Assembly: GCF_026340095.1 (NCBI RefSeq)
Contig: NZ_JAPEPO010000003.1
Coordinates: forward strand, 1 to 64,000
From: Streptomyces sp. NBC_01446
GTDB lineage: Bacteria; Actinomycetota; Actinomycetes; Streptomycetales; Streptomycetaceae
DNA: 64,000 nt
Direction: 5' to 3'
Shown here: positions 32,681-43,081 of the stretch, piece by piece
How the letters are laid out: each line of letters starts with the position of its first letter
Numbering within the stretch: the first letter of the stretch is position 1
Notes under the pieces: model-generated
Database searches by the model: none
Told to the model about the DNA's origin: nothing
Seen by the model: the letters and a program-made list of their open reading frames with translations, nothing else
Translations under genes and position numbers: made by a program

Positions 32681-33374
32681 CACGCCCGCCCTCCCATCGA
32701 TCGCGTCCGGCCACCAGCCGGGCGCCGGCCACCGGCCGCGGAGGGATCCGGCCCCCCGAACCCGATGATCTCCTCCACCACCGACAACCAACTCAAGTAC
32801 AAGGGGAGAGAAGAGGGTTGTGACAATCCGGTACGGCCTCCGGAAACCCGTGGTGACCAGGGGGAAATGCAGGATGCACAGGCGTCGGGCACGGAAGTGG
32901 CTTCGGCAGTGCGAACGGAAGCGCCGACAGCAGGAGACCACCAGGGCTTGCCCATCCGCTGCACCCACTACGCGGGCGACACGGGCCGGGCGGCGGCGCC
33001 GCGGTGGACAAGGCTCCATCGTGCGCGACGGGCACGGCGGCCGGAAGGGCGGCGGGGGGCGGTGCGGGCACGGGGTCCTCGTTCCTCCCAGCCGGGCCGG
33101 GATGGGGCGGCCGCTCGTACGTCCGCGCGCAACTGACGCGTGCGGGACGGGCGCCACCCTGCGCGATCACCCCTTGACCGCGGTCTGCTCATCCCGGCCC
33201 GCGGTCTTAAAGAAGGAAGCGCACGTCAACTGAGCTCTCCAGGCGGCACGTTCGGTTCTCCTTGAGCAAGACGAGCCGCAGCACATCCCGTTGCGTCATC
33301 CCGACAGTGACCCGACTGTGTTGGTACGGCTGCAGCCACAGCCTGAATGGTCGTCGCCTATCGAAAAGGACCTC
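32681..33374. other. Gap with no recognised gene
   Basis: About 690 bp upstream of the replication-relaxation gene and of the FAD oxidoreductase fragment. Frames present encode strongly basic, Arg-rich or Gly-rich text without domains, typical of non-coding high-GC DNA. The promoter of the replication-relaxation gene must lie at its left end. Confidence 0.4.
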
Positions 33375-33550
33375 ATGTCAGCCGTTGTTGTTGTCGGTGT
33401 GGGAATCGTCGGCTCCTCGGTGGCCTACCACCTGGCGTGTCAGGGCATCCCGGTCACCTTGCTCGAACAAGGACCTGCACCGGCCACCGGGGACTCTGCT
33501 GCACATTTCGCTGGGGCGTGCGGGGTGACCCTGTCGGGGCCGGCAGCTGC
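33375..33550 (+). pseudogene. FAD-dependent oxidoreductase (DadA-like), 5' fragment
   Basis: The ATG at 33375 has AAAAGGA upstream and begins the FAD Rossmann motif VVVVGVGIVGSSVAYHL, then GIPVTLLEQGPAPATGDS. Similarity to D-amino-acid-oxidase/glycine-oxidase type proteins stops near 33510, where the sequence becomes unrelated. The remaining part of the same enzyme is found at about 35115-36057, on the far side of an endonuclease-VII-like gene on the opposite strand. Confidence 0.7.
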
Positions 33551-33586
33551 GAGGTGACGTGGGGCGTCAGGTCTCCCGGTGCTCGC

Positions 33587-34930
33587 TCAGAACAGTGCTG
33601 GGCCCTCGCCGCTGGTGTCCACGATAACTGGCCGGAACTGGGCAGGGAGGCCGTCCAGGCGGTCAGGACCGGCCGCGGCGGCCACGGCAGGGGCCGTCTC
33701 GGCCAGCCAGGTGCGAAACCGCTCGGCGGCTTCGCGGTAGGGGACTCGCGCCAGGACACGGTGCTCGCCGGAGGGGCAGAAGTCGACGGCGACCGTGAGC
33801 AGGCAGGAACGGGGCGCCTGGTGACTGCCCGTCCAGGACACGCGCAGGACACCGCAGGGTGTGCGCCCGCGGGGAGCGGGGTGGGTCGGGCGCAGTGATC
33901 GGCAGGCTGTGTGGGCGGTCCATGCGGCGAGGTGGGGCAGGGGCAGGGTGGTGCGTGCGCGGCAGCCGGGGCAGCGGTGCCAGTGGCGGAGCCAGTCGTC
34001 GGTGTCGGTGTGGAAGAGGCGTGTGTAGCGGTTCGCCACGCGGATGTCGTTGCTGTACAGGTGGTCGGGGCGTTCCAGTGTGTTGCAGGACTGGCAGAGG
34101 GGGGCACGGACGTAGCCGTGTTCGTGGCAGTGGTCGAGGACGGCGGCGGGCGCAGTGCGGCAGACAGCGCACGCCCACCCAGCCACCCTGCGGGAGGTAC
34201 CGGGCTTCCTGCTGAGCACCGAGTACAGCTGGCCTTCCAGCTCTTTGTTGTACGGGCGCAGTGAGGCGGTGGGGCCCTCGGGGCTCGTCGTCTGCCGACC
34301 GCCGGCCTCTCGGGCCTGCCGGGGGTAGGAGGGCGGCTCCGTGACGGCTGCGCCTGCCTGGCGGGTCCGCGCGGCTTGCACCCACTGCGTTTCGGCGTGC
34401 TCGGCCGCATCCAGCAGCCTGACCACAGCGCGCGGCAGCCACCACGTCCGCCGCGTCCCGTCGCGGGTCTGCTCCACGAGTATCTGTCGCCAGTCGATCC
34501 CCGCCAGATGGTACGGCCGGCCGACTTCACGTCGTGCTGCCCGCGCGGGCCCGCCCAGCTCCTGCAGTTCCCCCGTGATGCGCCGGCGCCAACGCAGCGG
34601 CGTTTCCTCGGTGCACTCCTGCCTCGGCGCCCCACGAAACGGACCGATGCGGACCAGGTCCTGCCGATCCATCCCCACCGCGTTCAGTTCCGCGGCCGCC
34701 CGGCGCACCTCAACCTCCGGAACACTCCACTGACCGCCGCTCGCCCTCACCGTCGCCACCACACGGCCGCCGAGCAGGACGTACCCCACCCGGGCATGGG
34801 CAGGAGAGCAGGTGAATGCCCCAGAAGCCGTCGGCACAGCACTGTCGGCCGTCAAATCGACCCACAGAGCGTCCGCGGCACCCAGGGTGATCAGGCCGTC
34901 CGTGCGACCGGGCATGACACGCTCTGACAT
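33587..34930 (-). CDS. Recombination endonuclease VII-like (HNH/beta-beta-alpha metal) protein
   Basis: A 447-residue protein. The central domain (residues about 250-300) is an endonuclease VII signature: CxxC at C254/C257, LDHCHEHGYVRAPLCQSCN with the D266-H267 catalytic region and second CxxC at C279/C282. The zinc-binding Cys quartet and the DHCH...G...LC..CN pattern are diagnostic. About 250 residues before and 150 after lack recognised domains; the latter includes another CPGC. Endonuclease VII cuts branched DNA in phages, and related domains occur in homing and restriction-like proteins. The gene is embedded head-on inside an interrupted oxidoreductase gene, as expected for a mobile endonuclease. 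It appears intact. Confidence 0.7.
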   Translation of the reverse strand: MSERVMPGRTDGLITLGAADALWVDLTADSAVPTASGAFTCSPAHARVGYVLLGGRVVATVRASGGQWSVPEVEVRRAAAELNAVGMDRQDLVRIGPFRGAPRQECTEETPLRWRRRITGELQELGGPARAARREVGRPYHLAGIDWRQILVEQTRDGTRRTWWLPRAVVRLLDAAEHAETQWVQAARTRQAGAAVTEPPSYPRQAREAGGRQTTSPEGPTASLRPYNKELEGQLYSVLSRKPGTSRRVAGWACAVCRTAPAAVLDHCHEHGYVRAPLCQSCNTLERPDHLYSNDIRVANRYTRLFHTDTDDWLRHWHRCPGCRARTTLPLPHLAAWTAHTACRSLRPTHPAPRGRTPCGVLRVSWTGSHQAPRSCLLTVAVDFCPSGEHRVLARVPYREAAERFRTWLAETAPAVAAAAGPDRLDGLPAQFRPVIVDTSGEGPALF

Positions 34931-35114
34931 ACCGACAGGCTACCGGCCTGCAACGCGGCAACGGGTCCCAAGCGCCTCGGTCAGCCGGGCCGCCGCCCGC
35001 AACTCCATATTCCTGAGCATCTGGTTCGTCAGCACCTCCCATGCCCGCAGCCTCACCACCAGAACGTCAAGAACCGGGCAAGTCACCCTCGCGCATCAGC
35101 GGTCCCCGAGCCCA

Positions 35115-36057
35115 GACGAATTGAGCAACAGAGTCACCGGGGTCACCAAAGACTCCTTCGTCTGGATCCGCGGCGCGGGAGGCCACTGGCCCGGCGGAGC
35201 CCAAGACCTCCGCGAGTACGCCATGGCCGACTACCGACGCCTGGAGAACGAACTGCCATCTCACCCTCCGCCGGACCGGCTCGCTGACCTGGGCCGACAC
35301 ACCAGCGCAGGACACACGGCCGGGCCCAAGCCAATTCCGCATCGGACGAAGTGACATCGCAGCCCTGGAGCCCAACCTCCGGCACCCACCCGACCAGGCC
35401 ATCCACACCCCGAGCGACGCAGGCGTCGACCCAACGGCCATGACCCACGCACTCGCGGCAGCCGCCGGCGCCCACGGAGCAACCGTGCTCCACAACACCG
35501 CGGTCACCTCCTTGCAGGTGACCAACGGACACGTTGACGGAGTGCTGACTTCGACGGGGCTCCACGCCGCCACCACCGTCGTTCTCACTGCAGGCGTACC
35601 CAAACTCTGCGAGCCGCTATCGGCCGACCTGGCCATTGCCGCCTCCCCGGCCACCCTCGCGCGGGTCACAGCACCGCCCGGCCTGGTCAAGACCATCGTG
35701 GCCGGCCCTGGCTTCGAGGTCCGAGAGGTACGGGACGGCGACCTCTTGCTGGTCGTGCCGCACGTTGAAGGCACAGCAGCAGCGCGTGAGCAGGCCGCTC
35801 AAGACGCGCTCCAGCACCTGCAGGCGACCTTCCAGGAAGGCGACCAGTGCCGCCTGCTGGGCTACCGCACCGGCCAACGCCCCATGCCCGCGCACGGGCC
35901 CGTCATTGGATACGCGACACACGACCGATCCGTCTACGTCGCAGTCATGCACTCCGCCATCACCCTGGCGCCCACCGTCGGACGGCTCGTCGCAGACAAA
36001 CTCGTGACCGGCAGGCCAGCCCCCGAGCTACAGCGTTGCCGCCCGCGCGCTCACTGA
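35115..36057 (+). pseudogene. FAD-dependent oxidoreductase (DadA-like), 3' fragment, frameshifted
   Basis: Similarity resumes at about 35123 with VTGVTKDSFVWIRGAGGHWPGGAQDLREYAMADYRRLE, the continuation expected after the 5' fragment at 33375-33550. Near 35262 the frame shifts; the continuation LTLRRTGSLTWADTP and SQFRIGRSDIAALEP lies in the next frame and joins the open frame ending at 36057. That frame contains AAAAGAHGATVLHNTAVTSLQV, TTVVLTAGV and YRTGQRPMPAHGPVIGY as well as the C-terminal MHSAITLAPTVGRLVADKL. The gene is therefore both interrupted and frameshifted, and not functional. Confidence 0.7.
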
Positions 36058-36801: not shown

Positions 36802-38043
36802 TCAGAGCCGTGGGGATGGATGGCGTACGCCGTCGGTGGCTGTCCACGGCGCGATGAGCGCGGCGGCCACGGAGACGGCGATCAGGAGGAAGAACAGCGG
36901 TCCGTAGCCGCTCAGGGGCACGGCGAGGGCAGCGCCAGCGAACGGTGCGAGTGCTGCTGCTGTTTGGGCGGGTGCGGCCAGGAGTCCGGAGAGTCGGCCG
37001 TAGTGGGTGGTGCCCCAGCGGTCAGTGATGGCGGTGGCTTGGAGGAGGGTGAGGTTGCCGCGGACCATGCCGGCTACGACCGAAACGGCGATGAGGAGGC
37101 CGTACGGGCCAGGGGCGGCGGCGAACCCGGCCGTGATCAGTCCGCCGAGTCCGATCAGGATCGTGGTGCGGGCCGTTGCGGTGGTGCGGCGGGCGAGGGC
37201 TGCGTACAGGGTGCGGCCGAGGGTCTGGCCTACACCGCCGATGCCGAGGGCCCACGCGGCCTGGCTGGTGGTGTACCCGCGCTCCAGGAGGAGCGGGACG
37301 AGGGCCACAACGACGGCGTACATCGCGAAGCCCGACAGAGTGAAGGCGGCGGCGAGCAGCAGGAACGGTCGGCTGCGCCCGACCCCGGCAGCGCCTGCGG
37401 CCGTGTGTGCGGGGCTGGTTGGGGCGTCGGGCCAGGGTGCGCGCAGGGCCAGGGCGTGGACGGGGATGGTGACGGCGGCGAGGATGGCGGCGAGCACGAG
37501 GTAGGTGTGGCGCCAGGACAGATGCTCGGCGAGGGCTGCGGTCAGGGGTGCGAAGACCGTGGACGCGAGACCGCCGGCAAGGGTGACCACGGTCAGGGCC
37601 CGCACGTGGTTGGGGGCCCACCAGCGGGTGAGGGCGGCGAACGCGGGCTGGTAGAAGGTGGACGCCATCGCGAATCCGGCGAGCGCCCAACCGGCGATGA
37701 AAACCGGGAGGTTGGGGGCTGTGGCCACGATCAGCAGGCTGATGGCGCCGAGCACGGACCCGGCGGTCATGACGGTGCGCGGGCCGCGCCGGTCGAGGAT
37801 GCGCCCGACGCGGATCCCGGCGAGGGCGGAGACGACGAGACCCAGCGAGAACGCCGCGGTGGTCGCGCCGGTCGGCCACCCCGTCGCGGCGGTGATCTGG
37901 GGGTTGAGGACGGGGAACGCGTAGTAGACGATGCCCCAGCTCACGATCTGCGTGGCGCAGAGGGCGGGCAGGGCGGCACGGGGCCGCGACCGGTCCCCTG
38001 TTCCGGTCGCGGCCCCGCGCGAGGTGGTGCCCAGGTCGGTCAC
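36802..38043 (-). CDS. MFS transporter, translationally coupled to an arsenic-island flavoprotein
   Basis: A 413-residue transporter starting at GTG 38043, which overlaps the stop of the upstream flavoprotein gene (GTGA). It has 12 hydrophobic segments and MFS landmarks: LCATQIVSWGIVYYAFPVLNP in the first span, the loop motif AGIRVGRILDRRGPRTVM (G-x-x-x-D-R-x-G-R type), and a second half beginning FLLLAAAFTLSGFAMY. The arrangement next to ArsR-controlled flavoproteins suggests export of a modified arsenical. Other MFS proteins near arsenic genes, such as ArsJ, carry organoarsenicals. The C-terminus overlaps no gene. Substrate is inferred from context only. Confidence 0.75.
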   Translation of the reverse strand: MTDLGTTSRGAATGTGDRSRPRAALPALCATQIVSWGIVYYAFPVLNPQITAATGWPTGATTAAFSLGLVVSALAGIRVGRILDRRGPRTVMTAGSVLGAISLLIVATAPNLPVFIAGWALAGFAMASTFYQPAFAALTRWWAPNHVRALTVVTLAGGLASTVFAPLTAALAEHLSWRHTYLVLAAILAAVTIPVHALALRAPWPDAPTSPAHTAAGAAGVGRSRPFLLLAAAFTLSGFAMYAVVVALVPLLLERGYTTSQAAWALGIGGVGQTLGRTLYAALARRTTATARTTILIGLGGLITAGFAAAPGPYGLLIAVSVVAGMVRGNLTLLQATAITDRWGTTHYGRLSGLLAAPAQTAAALAPFAGAALAVPLSGYGPLFFLLIAVSVAAALIAPWTATDGVRHPSPRL

Positions 38044-39443
38044 GAGCCGCAGCAGCCGCCCGCCGGGGCCTCCTCGGCAGCCACCCCTACCGCGACCGGG
38101 GCGCCGAGCTGTACGAGCTGCGGCGCGGGCGCGCAGCACCCGCCACCATGGGCCTCCTGGGCGTCGGGAGCGTCGAACAGACCGGCGCCGCCGCACACTC
38201 CCGTTTCGGGGAGGGTGAGTTCAATGCGGTCGGCGGACTCGAGGTCGCCGGCGATGGCGGCGGCGACGGAGCGGACCTGCTCGTAGCCGGTCATGGCCAG
38301 GAAGGTCGGGGCGCGGCCGTAGGACTTCATGCCGACCAGGTACACGCCCTGCTCCGGGTGGGAGAGCTCGCGGTGGCCGTGCGGGTAGACGGTGCCGCAG
38401 GAATGCTGGTTGGGGTCGATCAGCGGCGCCAGCTCGACGGGAGCCTGGAGGCGCTCGTCGAGACCGAGGCGGAGCTCGTCGAGGAAGGACAGGTCGGGGC
38501 GGAAGCCCGTCAACACGATCACCTGGTCGACCGCGTCCAGGCGGCGCCCGTCCTCGCCGACCAGGACCAGGCGGCCGTCCGCATCGCGCTCGATCGCGTC
38601 GGTGCGGAAGCCTGTGACCGCGTCGGCGTGACCGTCGTCGACGGCGGCCTTCGCGGCGAGACCGAGGGCGCCGCGTGCGGGGAGCTGGTCGGCTTCGCCG
38701 CCGCCGAAGGTGGAGCCCGAGATGCCCCGGCGCAGGATCCACACGCCCTTCGTGCCCGCGCCGTCGTCGGACTTGGCGAGGTCGGCGAGGTAGGCGAGAG
38801 CGGTGAACGCTGAGGCGCCGGAGCCGATGACCGCGGTGCGCTTGCCGACGTACCGGGCCCGTACGGCCGGGTTCTTCAGGTCCGGGACGCGGTAGGTGAT
38901 CCGGTCCGCGGCGGCCTTCTCGCCGAGGGCGGCAAGGCCGCTGCCGCCGGCCGGGCTGGGCGTGGCCCAGGTACCGGAGGCGTCAATGACGGCGCGGGTG
39001 AAGAGGCGTTCCTCGCGGCCGTTCGCGTGGGCGACGTGCACGACGAACGGCTGCTGCTCGCGGTCGGCGTCCACGATGCGGTCCCGGCCAGCCCGGGAGA
39101 CGCCGGTCACGGTGGCGCCGGTGCGGACGCGGTCGCCGAGAGCGTGGGCGAGCGGCTGCAGGTAGAGATCGGCCCAGTCGCCGCCGGAGGGGTAGGTCGC
39201 CGGGTCGGGGCGCGTCCAGCCGGTGGGCGCCAGCAGCTTCTCGGCGGCCGGGTCGACGACCTCGCCCCAGGTGGAGAACAACCGGACGTGCGCCCACTCG
39301 CGCACTGCTGCGCCGGCAGTGTGGCCGGCTTCCAGGACCAGGGGCTCGATGCCCTGGTCGAGAAGGTGGGCGGCGGCGGCCAGGCCGGCGGGTCCGGCCC
39401 CGATCACGACGACGGGCAGCTCGGTGGTGGCGGGCGCGTTCAC
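38040..39443 (-). CDS. FAD/NAD(P)-binding oxidoreductase with double-cysteine C-terminal tail (arsenic island)
   Basis: A 467-residue flavoprotein. N-terminal FAD motif VVIGAGPAGLAAAAHLL (residues 11-27), NADPH motif AVIGSGASAFTALAYL in the middle, and LTGFRPD near the C-terminus, a flavin-monooxygenase-like layout. The last 60 residues carry CGGAGLFDAPDAQEA, then GGGCCAPAPQLV and a final GGCCGS: two vicinal Cys pairs at the very end. Vicinal cysteines can bind As(III), so a built-in arsenical sensing or delivery tail is plausible. It heads a leftward operon with the MFS gene and shares its promoter region with the flavoprotein at 39556 under ArsR-type operators. An ATG at 39443 is the start. 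Confidence 0.8.
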   Translation of the reverse strand: MNAPATTELPVVVIGAGPAGLAAAAHLLDQGIEPLVLEAGHTAGAAVREWAHVRLFSTWGEVVDPAAEKLLAPTGWTRPDPATYPSGGDWADLYLQPLAHALGDRVRTGATVTGVSRAGRDRIVDADREQQPFVVHVAHANGREERLFTRAVIDASGTWATPSPAGGSGLAALGEKAAADRITYRVPDLKNPAVRARYVGKRTAVIGSGASAFTALAYLADLAKSDDGAGTKGVWILRRGISGSTFGGGEADQLPARGALGLAAKAAVDDGHADAVTGFRTDAIERDADGRLVLVGEDGRRLDAVDQVIVLTGFRPDLSFLDELRLGLDERLQAPVELAPLIDPNQHSCGTVYPHGHRELSHPEQGVYLVGMKSYGRAPTFLAMTGYEQVRSVAAAIAGDLESADRIELTLPETGVCGGAGLFDAPDAQEAHGGGCCAPAPQLVQLGAPVAVGVAAEEAPAGGCCGS

Positions 39444-39460
39444 GACGACTCCTAGCGTGA

Positions 39461-39536
39461 TTCGACATCTGTCGATGGCTTGCGCGGCCCAGCATGGGAC
39501 CTGTATTGATGAGCGTCAACATAGACATTCATCGAA
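39461..39536. promoter_or_regulatory. Divergent promoter with two ArsR-type operators
   Basis: Two sites are visible. TTCGACATCTGTCGATGG contains the perfect CGACA-TC-TGTCG palindrome (39463-39474) close to the leftward gene. TTGATGAGCGTCAACATAGACATTCATCGAA (39506-39536) is an imperfect 13+13 palindrome around the core GTC-AACATA-GAC. That core is identical to the operator at 40635-40666, so the ArsR encoded at 40659 probably controls both leftward and rightward transcripts. Confidence 0.7.
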
Positions 39537-39555
39537 ACCACGTGGGGGATCGCTG

Positions 39556-40616
39556 ATGGAGCACATCGACGTCGCTGTCATCGGGGGCGGCCAGTCCGGC
39601 CTCGCCACCGCCCACGCGTTGCTGCGCCGGGGGCTGCGGCCGGTGGTGCTGGAGGCGTCCGGCCGCGCGGCCGGGTCGTGGCCGCGCTACTACGACAGCC
39701 TCACGCTGTTCTCACCCGCCCGGTACAGCTCGCTGCCGGGGATGCCGTTTCCCGGCGCCGACCGTGACCGCTATCCGCACCGCGACGAGGTCGTCGCCTA
39801 CCTCACCGCCTACGCCGACCGCCTGGACGCCGAGATCCGCACCGGCTGCCGCGTCACCGCGGTCCGCCGTACCGGCGACGTCTTCGAAGTGGAGCTGGAG
39901 GGTGGCGGCCGGCTTTCCACGCGGCCGTCGTGGCGGCCTCCGGGACGTTCGGGCGCCCCCACCGCCCGGCGCTGCCGGGCTTGGAGGCATTCGCCGGACA
40001 GGTGCTGCACGCCGCCGACTGCCGCGGTCCGGCCCCGTTCACCGGCCACCGAGTGGTCATGGTCGGGGCCGGGAACTCCGCGGTGCAGATCGCCGCCGAG
40101 CTCGCCACGACCAACCGCGTCACGCTCGCCACCCGCCGGCCGGTGAAGTTCGCGGCGCAACGGCTCCTCGGCCGCGACCTGCACTTCTGGCTGGCCCGCA
40201 CTGGCCTGGACACCGCGCCCTTCGGCCGGCTCCTGTCGCGCCCGCCGGCGCAGCCGGTCCTCGATGACGGCCGCTACCGGGCCGCCCTGGCCGCCAGCCG
40301 GCCCGAGCGGCGAGCGATGTTCACGGGCGCCGACGGAAGCAAGCTCGTCTGGCCGGACGGCGAGCGAGAGGAAGCCGACACGATCGTCCTCGCCACGGGA
40401 TACCGCCCCGACCTGCCGTACCTCGCCGGCCTCGACGGCGCTCTCGACGCCGAGGGGGACCCCCGGCACCGCGAGGGGATTGCCACCGGCGTGCCGGGCC
40501 TGGCATTCGTCGGGCTGGAATGGCAGCGCAGTCTGTCGTCGAACTCTCTGCGTGGCGTGGGTCGGGACGCGGGCCGCGTTGCCCGGCGCCTGGCCGGGCA
40601 ACTCGCGCTCCGGTGA
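39556..40616 (+). pseudogene. Flavin monooxygenase-like protein of the arsenic island (ArsO-like), frameshifted
   Basis: From the ATG at 39556 the FAD motif VIGGGQSGLATAHALL and SLTLFSPARYSSLPGMPFPG are ArsO-like. Near 39922 (ACGCGGCCGTC) one base is missing; adding it gives RAVVAASGTFGRPHRPALPGLE and the rest: VVMVGAGNSAVQIAAELA (NADPH motif), IVLATGYRPDLPYLAGLDGAL and the end at 40616. Corrected length is about 353 residues. It resembles the intact flavoprotein at 42014 in layout (GGGQxGLA..., LFSPAxxSSLPG) but is clearly diverged. The lesion needs confirmation by re-sequencing. Confidence 0.7.
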
Positions 40617-40634: not shown

Positions 40635-40666
40635 TTCGACATGTGTCAACATAGACACATGTCGAA
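40635..40666. promoter_or_regulatory. ArsR operator, 13-bp perfect palindrome overlapping the arsR start codon
   Basis: TTCGACATGTGTC (40635-40647) and GACACATGTCGAA (40654-40666) are perfect inverted complements around AACATA. The ATG at 40659 lies inside the right arm, so bound ArsR would cover the translation start region. The same core (GTC-AACATA-GAC) occurs at 39515-39526. Confidence 0.85.
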
Positions 40667-41033
40667 TGCGAAGGTGCTGCCGCTGCTCGAGCCCGCCGAT
40701 GGCCAGGGTGTGGCGCCGTGCTGCCCGCCGCTGACCGAGCGGCCGATGACCGCCGTGGAGGCCGAGACGGCCGCGCGGATGTTCAAGGCGCTGGGCGATC
40801 CGGTCCGGCTGCGGCTGTTCTCCGCGGTGGCCTCGCATGAGGGCGGGGAGGCGTGCGTGTGCGACATCTCCGATGTCGGCGTCTCCCAGCCCACGGTGTC
40901 CCACCACCTGAAGAAGCTGAAGGAGGCCGGGCTGCTCACCTCCGAGCGGCGCGGCACCTGGGTGTACTACCGGGTCGAGCCGTCGGTGCTCGCCGCCATG
41001 GGCAAGCTGCTGGCCATGCCCGCCGCGGCGTGA
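40659..41033 (+). CDS. arsR: ArsR-family metalloregulator
   Basis: A 124-residue repressor. ARMFKALGDPVRLRLFSAVA is the first helix pair, EACVCDISDVGVSQPTVSHHLKKLKEAGLL holds the CVCD metal-binding motif of As(III)/Sb(III)-responding ArsR proteins and the HTH, and RRGTWVYYRV is the wing. An N-terminal CCPPL pair adds further cysteines. The ATG at 40659 is preferred over the upstream ATG at 40641, which lies in the operator. Without a ribosome binding site the mRNA is probably leaderless. Metal binding releases DNA, inducing the divergent flavoprotein operons. It is convergent with the TauE/SafE gene. Confidence 0.85.
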   Translation: MSNAKVLPLLEPADGQGVAPCCPPLTERPMTAVEAETAARMFKALGDPVRLRLFSAVASHEGGEACVCDISDVGVSQPTVSHHLKKLKEAGLLTSERRGTWVYYRVEPSVLAAMGKLLAMPAAA

Positions 41034-42013: not shown

Positions 42014-43081
42014 TCAGTTGTGCGTGCACAGCGCCGCGATTTCGCGGGCGGCGTCCCGTGTGGGGCGCCCCACCCCGATCAGCGTCGCGGACGCCGGGCC
42101 GGTCCAGTCGCCGTAGCCGAGCAGGTGCAGGCGCGGTTCGCCGACGGCCCGGGTGCCCTCGGTCGCGATGTGCCCGCGCGTGCTCCGGAGCTGGAGCGGG
42201 GCCAGGTGGGACAGGGCCGGGCGGAAGCCGGTGCACCAGATGACCGCATCCGCGCTTTCGTGGCTGCCGTCGGCCCATCGGACACCGTCAGTGGTGAGCT
42301 GGGAGAACATCGGCCTCGCGGTCAGGAGCCCGGCGTCGCGGGCGGCACGGACGGGCGGCACGGCGACGATGTCGCCGAGCGAGGCCACCCCGCCGGTGTC
42401 GTCGCGGCCTTCTTGAAGGGCGCGGCGGCGTGCGGTGGCGACGTCGAACAGGGCGCGGCCGTCGATGTCGTCGGCGAGGAACCGCGGCGGGCGCTGGGTC
42501 ACCCAGGTGACGTCGACGCGGCTGTCCAGGGCGAGGTCGGCGGCGATCTGCGCGCCGGAGTTCCCGCCGCCGACCACGATCACGCGTTGGCCGGCGAAGT
42601 CGGCCGGACAGCGGTAGTTCACCGTGTGCAGCTGCTGACCGGTGACGACGTCGCGGCCGGGGAGAGAGGGGAGGAAGGGCCGCGTCCAGGTGCCGGTGGC
42701 ACTGATGACCGCGCGGGCCCGCCAGGTGCCGGTGTCGGCCTCGACCAGGAGCCGATCGCCGTCGCGGCGTACGGCCTCCACACGGGTGCCGTGCTGGACG
42801 GGCAGGCCGTAGCGCTTCTCGTAGTCGGCGAGGTAGTCCACGACGTGCCCGGCGTCCGGGTATGTCTGGCCGGGCTGGGCGGGCATGAGCCGGCCTGGCA
42901 GGGAGGAGTGCTCGGCCGGGGAGAACAGGTGTAGCGAGTTCCACATGTGCTGCCAGGACCCGCCCGGCGCCGGGCTGGCGTCCAGGATGACGTGGTCGAG
43001 GCTCTGGCGGCGCAGGTGGTAGCCGGCGGCGAGCCCTGCTTGGCCGCCGCCGACCACCACCACGTCCGTGTGCTGTGTCAC
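42014..43081 (-). CDS. arsO: ArsO-like flavin-binding monooxygenase
   Basis: A 355-residue flavoprotein beginning with a GTG (43081) that overlaps the Acr3 stop as GTGA. FAD motif VVVGGGQAGLAAGYHLRR, then WNSLHLFSPAEHSSLPGRLMP, NADPH motif VIVVGGGNSGAQIAADLAL, and VIWCTGFRPALSHLAPL near the end fit flavin-containing monooxygenases. It is the third gene of the leftward arsR-acr3-arsO transcript and corresponds to arsO of the known Streptomyces arsRBOCT cluster, whose substrate is not established. Possibly it oxidises an arsenical or regenerates a redox partner. Confidence 0.8.
   Translation of the reverse strand: MTQHTDVVVVGGGQAGLAAGYHLRRQSLDHVILDASPAPGGSWQHMWNSLHLFSPAEHSSLPGRLMPAQPGQTYPDAGHVVDYLADYEKRYGLPVQHGTRVEAVRRDGDRLLVEADTGTWRARAVISATGTWTRPFLPSLPGRDVVTGQQLHTVNYRCPADFAGQRVIVVGGGNSGAQIAADLALDSRVDVTWVTQRPPRFLADDIDGRALFDVATARRRALQEGRDDTGGVASLGDIVAVPPVRAARDAGLLTARPMFSQLTTDGVRWADGSHESADAVIWCTGFRPALSHLAPLQLRSTRGHIATEGTRAVGEPRLHLLGYGDWTGPASATLIGVGRPTRDAAREIAALCTHN

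Follow-up and report, generated by a model that had tools for sequence, protein, structure and literature searches.

The 64,000-nucleotide stretch analysed here (the window) is the end of one contig of Streptomyces sp. NBC_01446 (NZ_JAPEPO010000003.1), whose 10.86-Mb genome is contained in four contigs. At positions 36802–40616, a span that the original prediction had delimited correctly, lies a putative arsenical-resistance module. It includes a flavoprotein gene (FP, 38040–39443, minus strand, 467 aa), a major facilitator superfamily (MFS) transporter gene (P0002, 36802–38043, minus strand), and a divergent ArsO-like flavin monooxygenase (FMO) gene (39556–40616, plus strand), next to which stands an arsR repressor gene (40659–41033, plus strand, alternative start at 40641). 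As predicted, FP and the MFS gene form a leftward coupled unit, in which the GTG start codon of the transporter at 38043 shares the four bases GTGA with the FP stop.

FP is a FAD/NAD(P) enzyme with two dinucleotide-binding regions. It exceeds the cut-offs of the Pfam families Pyr_redox_3 and Pyr_redox_2 (FAD/NAD(P)-binding domains) and that of no NCBIfam family in the 25 of its 31 matches that were listed. FP belongs to the same FMO-like superfamily as ArsO, but it scores 52.8 bits against the ArsO model NF040505, whose cut-off is 425. The AlphaFold model has a mean predicted local distance difference test score (pLDDT) of 83.9, with a confident core and a low-confidence tail starting at residue 417. 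Among solved structures, its fold is most similar to those of YpdA bacillithiol disulfide reductases (7a76_C; Z 30.2, root-mean-square deviation 2.7, 318 residues aligned), closely followed by bacterial flavin monooxygenases (4a9w_A; Z 26.6, deviation 3.2, 312 aligned). FP has the two-dinucleotide-binding fold common to YpdA/Bdr and SmFMO-type monooxygenases, but it lacks the YpdA Cys position and has an added Cys tail. Two core cysteines, Cys349 and Cys417, are invariant in a 20-row alignment of the family. A 40-row alignment was composed of the window protein, seven relatives, and 32 of 80 named loci; these 80 rank highest among at least 590 genome stretches and are biased to proteins near the alphaproteobacterial query. 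Most of its invariant columns fall in the dinucleotide-binding and core segments; Cys349, Cys417, and Cys437 are invariant, and Cys436 is nearly so.

Past the core, FP carries a Cys-rich C-terminal tail (residues 418–467, with the stop codon at 38040–38192 on the minus strand; pLDDT below 50 in the predicted model), which ends in ...HGGGCCAP...APAGGCCGS. It contains the two vicinal cysteine pairs (CC; residues 436–437 and 464–465, in GGGCC and GGCC) that the original prediction had pointed out, and its expectation of a conserved tail was borne out. In the named loci, 78 of the 80 proteins are complete; every one of these carries a CC past the GVC motif, and 69 carry two or more. Among the 18 near relatives (L006–L023; 17 of the same genus and one of the same order), the motif with at least one CC is present in 17, only three of which have two pairs, and the eighteenth has an altered motif and both pairs. 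Eleven further relatives (L024–L034) contain the motif in nine cases, eight with a CC and one (L027) without, and the remaining two, from interrupted or split frames, end in CC pairs. Plasmid copies have a CC in 11 of 13 cases, two staphylococcal copies (L038 and L039) having none at the C-terminus. Because of these tail counts, the first pair is regarded as a family trait and the second as variable. Chance occurrence of the pairs was rejected because they are conserved across the alignments and the counts. The tail was also considered as a module common to other proteins, which was set aside: a tail-like query against 10 genomes matched clearly once in each of nine (E 8.8e-5 or better) and weakly in the tenth (E 0.0035), apparently always at the FP tail, and gave three further weak matches (E 0.12 or worse). 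A CC proximal to the N-terminus is found in three of the four Bacillota homologues aligned (L038, L042, L043), and a longer tail pattern, CCGGPAP..DACC..DA.AK..G..GCGC, is common to many alphaproteobacterial FP tails (L046, L058, L113, and others). No statement on the Cys tail was met in the literature searched, which did not cover two ArsV papers, and its absence from print is not claimed.

The best family for the window MFS is NCBIfam ArsK (NF033733), yet its 161.5 bits stay below the cut-off of 400, and it shares 31% identity over 373 columns with Rhizobium ArsK, so that it is named ArsK-like only. ArsJ is absent among the 16 families listed for P0002, the presence of an ArsJ model in the library being unchecked. 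Pairing of FP with an MFS gene is frequent in the family. In 52 of the 80 named loci, FP is followed on its own strand by a marker-set MFS gene whose start is no more than 400 bases away; where at least 1500 bases lie downstream, a next-door MFS is present in 50 of 72 loci, with an MFS nearby in eight more. The co-occurrence that the original prediction had proposed to survey holds in most of the named loci but fails in many close relatives, as described below. The next-door arrangement was found for 51 of 75 FP matches versus none of 218 other ars or regulator matches in the same loci, a control that is weak for ArsR matches because many of them sit just before FP and could not precede an MFS gene; with all regulators removed, it was found for none of 118 other ars matches. 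The overlap count for MFS and FP starts (36 of 51) is too high, owing to the rule that takes the most upstream start within 60 bases, and was not used.

The transporters found with FP are largely of the ArsK type. Among 43 scanned MFS proteins encoded at FP loci, which comprise 34 of the 51 next-door transporters and nine others, the window's included, 41 match NCBIfam ArsK at E ≤ 1e-20, and the cut-off of 400 bits is passed by the partners in Ensifer adhaerens E-60 (513), Rhizobium rhizogenes (636), and Ensifer sp. IC3342 (497). In Rhizobium and Ensifer, the FP homologue overlaps a gene named arsK by NCBI, and four-base FP–MFS overlaps occur there as in the window. A full MFS gene is also present in both Streptomyces plasmids examined. 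Co-divergence of FP and MFS is weak (rho 0.27 over 50 loci, L124 being dropped for a truncated start; reached by none of 2000 permutations) and is given little weight because the permutations ignore shared ancestry. In L142, a locus of the same genus, the MFS position behind FP is taken by a gene resembling those of amino acid permeases (L142:9471–10700).

Control by ArsR, as originally predicted, is supported at the level of sequence by an operator-like element that is common to the FP upstream region and arsR and is kept in near relatives. An ArsR-type operator-like element, TTGATGAGCGTCAACATAGACATTCATCGAA, lies between FP and the divergent FMO (39506–39536), and a palindromic operator-like element with 13-base arms, TTCGACATGTGTC and GACACATGTCGAA, lies 5' of arsR (40635–40666). 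A search for GTCAACATAGACAYNNNTCGAA with up to two mismatches gave two sites in the window, both exact, one between FP and the monooxygenase (39515) and one at arsR (40645), and none in 100 shuffles. The 13-base operator core occurs in 15 of 127 loci. Two of the 15 represent the window's own genome, and each of the remaining 13 has the core upstream of FP. These 13 comprise 11 of the 18 nearest relatives and two Streptomyces plasmids; the core was found in none of the 80 named loci and none of the more distant loci. When the upstream regions of the window and the 13 core-bearing loci were aligned (14 regions, that of L017 being misplaced by the start choice and missing the core), another conserved element appeared directly 5' of the FP start; it reads TTCGACATCTGTCGATG in the window (39461–39477) and was mostly kept. 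The ArsR protein has an N-terminal CC pair, and its closest solved relative by sequence is 6j0e (E 7e-20), which we take to be a CgArsR-type, arsenic-responsive sensor of As(III). The CC pair aligns with the ECC of 6j0e, and the ACVC of the window protein lies a few residues off the 6j0e Cys that is presumably the third Cys of the As(III) site. We infer that ArsR would bind at the operator-like elements. Within 450 bases upstream of FP in the 80 named loci, the regulator is ArsR in 58 cases, PadR in six, and MarR in three.

The divergent flavin monooxygenase of the original prediction is present as an ArsO-like gene, but it is not intact. Compared with the intact 356-aa homologue of Streptomyces sp. 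FR-008, its two parts (39556–39894 and 39921–40604; 76% and 55% identity) lie in different frames, and the halves score 114 and 109 bits against the ArsO model. In Streptomyces sp. NBC_01446, this gene would give no full-length protein, unless the frame change is a sequencing error. Past a TauE/SafE permease gene lies a standard cluster, arsR-acr3-arsO with arsC-arsT, and a true ArsO is encoded in the window at 42014–43081 (549.5 bits to NF040505). The plasmid pSSFR1 of Streptomyces sp. FR-008 has the same arrangement as the window, with the monooxygenase intact and the TauE gene absent; an arsRBOCT system of this strain has already been published.

Other ars functions also accompany the family. 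In 47 of the 80 named loci, another ars-type gene is present, aquaporins counted. Four of 17 close-relative neighbourhoods have the C-As lyase ArsI after FP, and the one ArsI examined scores 204 bits against a cut-off of 116; the genome of the window has one ArsI, located on a different contig. ArsI stands directly behind FP in L145, L152, L153, and L154, all of the same genus, and in L145, a short MFS match comes after it. In the four loci examined for them, ArsN1-like acetyltransferases, none of which reaches the ArsN1 cut-offs, are encoded beside ArsR or fused to it. In Rhodococcus opacus B4, an ArsR fused to an ArsN1-like acetyltransferase (L036:7019–7888) is divergent from an FP–MFS pair.

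The FP family is widespread. Homologues were found in 32 of 61 genomes (E ≤ 1e-30, own genome included), 130 plasmid records, and at least 590 genome stretches, and a relative is encoded in one phage record; no Paracoccus record is among the FP matches listed. Close homologues occur in genomes of the same genus, and the plasmid copies most similar to FP are from Streptomyces (up to 94% identity). Among the 60 plasmid matches listed, most bear no label beyond "NAD(P)-binding domain-containing protein" or "FAD-dependent oxidoreductase". The staphylococcal plasmids L038 and L039, which come from poultry litter and chicken, carry FP and have no MFS annotated in the stretches shown. Roxarsone has been used in poultry, which could explain the presence of FP on these plasmids.

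The gene order, translational coupling, operator-like element, Cys residues, fold class, and ArsK-type MFS pairing in other phyla, all read from the sequence, suggest that FP is probably an NADPH/FAD-dependent oxidase of trivalent arsenicals, which works with an ArsK-like MFS exporter under the control of ArsR. The modify-and-export route for an arsenical that the original prediction proposed is likely and has sequence support, and the locus probably represents an actinobacterial branch of the published oxidise-and-export defence against organic arsenic. The further proposal of an undescribed system was set aside because the Ensifer and Rhizobium partners, whose genes overlap the FP homologues, pass the ArsK model and an ArsV–ArsW/ArsK scheme is in print. 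According to a review, ArsV, a flavin monooxygenase, oxidises methylarsenite, and export follows by ArsW, ArsP, or ArsK (PMC10080717); the proteins named there are the ArsV of Paracoccus sp. SY and the ArsK of Ensifer adhaerens ST2 (PMC10080717), and ArsV and ArsW/ArsK are the subject of two papers in Environ Microbiol (Chen J. et al., 2021; Zhang J. et al., 2022). ArsK is reported to give resistance to arsenite, antimonite, and organic forms.

Like ArsV with ArsW/ArsK, the locus combines a flavin enzyme with a transporter in a bacterial ars context and would follow an oxidise-then-extrude scheme. The FAD/NAD(P)-binding, monooxygenase-like fold expected of ArsV is found in FP, both in its Pfam domains and in its fold matches, and the ArsK-like MFS of the window recalls the ArsK genes overlapped by FP homologues in Ensifer and Rhizobium. 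Unlike the published pair, the window MFS lies under the ArsK cut-off, and the likeness to ArsV is one of fold and gene context. We infer that FP belongs to the ArsV family, known here by its description and gene context, because FP shares 48% identity over 467 columns with its homologue encoded next to arsK in E. adhaerens E-60. A position beside an ArsW/ArsK methylarsenite transporter is taken here as a mark of ArsV. FP may instead be ArsU or another published oxidase. The ArsJ/GAPDH and ArsQML arsinothricin routes likewise join a transporter to an enzyme for a modified organoarsenical, but the enzyme partner here is a flavoprotein.

The chemistry, substrate, direction of transport, role of the tail, ArsR binding, and inducer are assigned in the following proposed scheme. 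ArsR, with its vicinal Cys pair, would repress the FP–MFS transcript through the operators in the divergent promoter region, and a trivalent metalloid would release it from them. In analogy with mercuric reductase and its C-terminal Cys pair, the flexible Cys-pair tail may then capture the thiophilic substrate and pass it to the flavin site of FP, at which Cys349 and Cys417 are candidate inner ligands. FP would oxidise the trivalent arsenical, the most likely substrates being methylarsenite and other trivalent organoarsenicals and probably also Sb(III), and the ArsK-like MFS would export the product or the leftover substrate. Actinobacteria are a group rich in antibiotic producers. More tentatively, FP might be a vicinal-Cys-armed oxidase with trivalent biogenic organoarsenical antibiotics (methylarsenite and reduced arsinothricin-like compounds) as its main natural substrates. 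Its disordered CC tail might take the arsenical over from buffer thiols, deliver it to the flavin site, and then transfer it to the ArsK-like exporter, and the enzyme might form the core of the system in Actinobacteria, with MFS, ArsI, and ArsN1-like partners interchangeable under one ArsR.

It is unlikely that the system acts mainly against inorganic As(III) and Sb(III), with FP oxidising or sequestering them and the MFS serving as an As(III)/Sb(III) pump. The closeness of ArsR to 6j0e, with the CC aligned and the latter sensing As(III), would suit such a role, as would the reported activity of ArsK against arsenite and antimonite, but ACR3 and arsC already adjoin the locus. ArsI and ArsN1-like genes beside FP homologues favour organoarsenicals over an inorganic substrate. 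We also think it quite improbable that FP acts as a YpdA/TrxR-like reductase of the disulfide or flavodoxin type, specific for arsenicals, and maintains a thiol partner or its own tail in the reduced state, the MFS exporting As(III)–thiol adducts without any oxidation of arsenic. Although YpdA provides the closest solved folds and FP has vicinal Cys pairs, the score against YpdA (TIGR04018) is 40.3 bits versus a cut-off of 339.9, the presumably catalytic Cys of the YpdA motif GPCGLA is replaced by Ala in FP (GPAGLA), no CXXC was seen by eye in the FP core, and monooxygenase folds are nearly as close. A further reading, in which FP is metallochaperone-like or regulatory and its Cys tail delivers arsenicals to the MFS with no turnover, would agree with the conserved tails and the tight FP–MFS coupling, such as the four-base overlaps, but is very improbable given that most invariant columns lie in the dinucleotide-binding and core segments and that FP is kept without an MFS in many close relatives.

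Several observations weigh against FP as an arsenical oxidase paired with an ArsK-like exporter under ArsR. The C-terminal tail lacks a CC in three homologues (L027, L038, L039), the distal pair is variable, and P0002 scores below the ArsK cut-off. Among 17 FP loci with close-relative flanks from 15 same-genus genomes (three same-genus matches at contig ends or split were left out), an MFS match of at least half length is present in four, a short piece in three, and none was found in 10; the MFS is not an obligate FP partner, because it is often missing in these relatives. The operator core is missing from seven of the 18 nearest relatives' loci, and 13 of the 80 named loci have no marker-set regulator upstream. 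FP might act on Sb(III) or inorganic As(III), or it might be a reductase, and no assay of an actinobacterial member of the family was met in the literature searched.

Other features lie on the MFS side of the module. An ATP-dependent DNA ligase domain fragment (PF01068, 36160–36684) adjoins the MFS end. Farther out, a DAO-type FAD oxidoreductase gene (33291–36057) is apparently split into an N-terminal piece (33291–33557) and a C-terminal piece (35440–36057), both PF01266, between which an endonuclease VII-domain open reading frame lies on the opposite strand (33587–34930). It is possible that the nuclease gene was inserted into the oxidoreductase gene.

FP homologues are frequent on plasmids and in genomes under generic labels, and a link of the family to arsenical oxidation would give a name to a common ars gene. 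The candidate inner cysteines Cys349 and Cys417 and the CC tail would add mechanistic features to the published defence, and the ArsI, ArsN1-like, and ArsK-like genes of Actinobacteria would be tied to one enzyme core.

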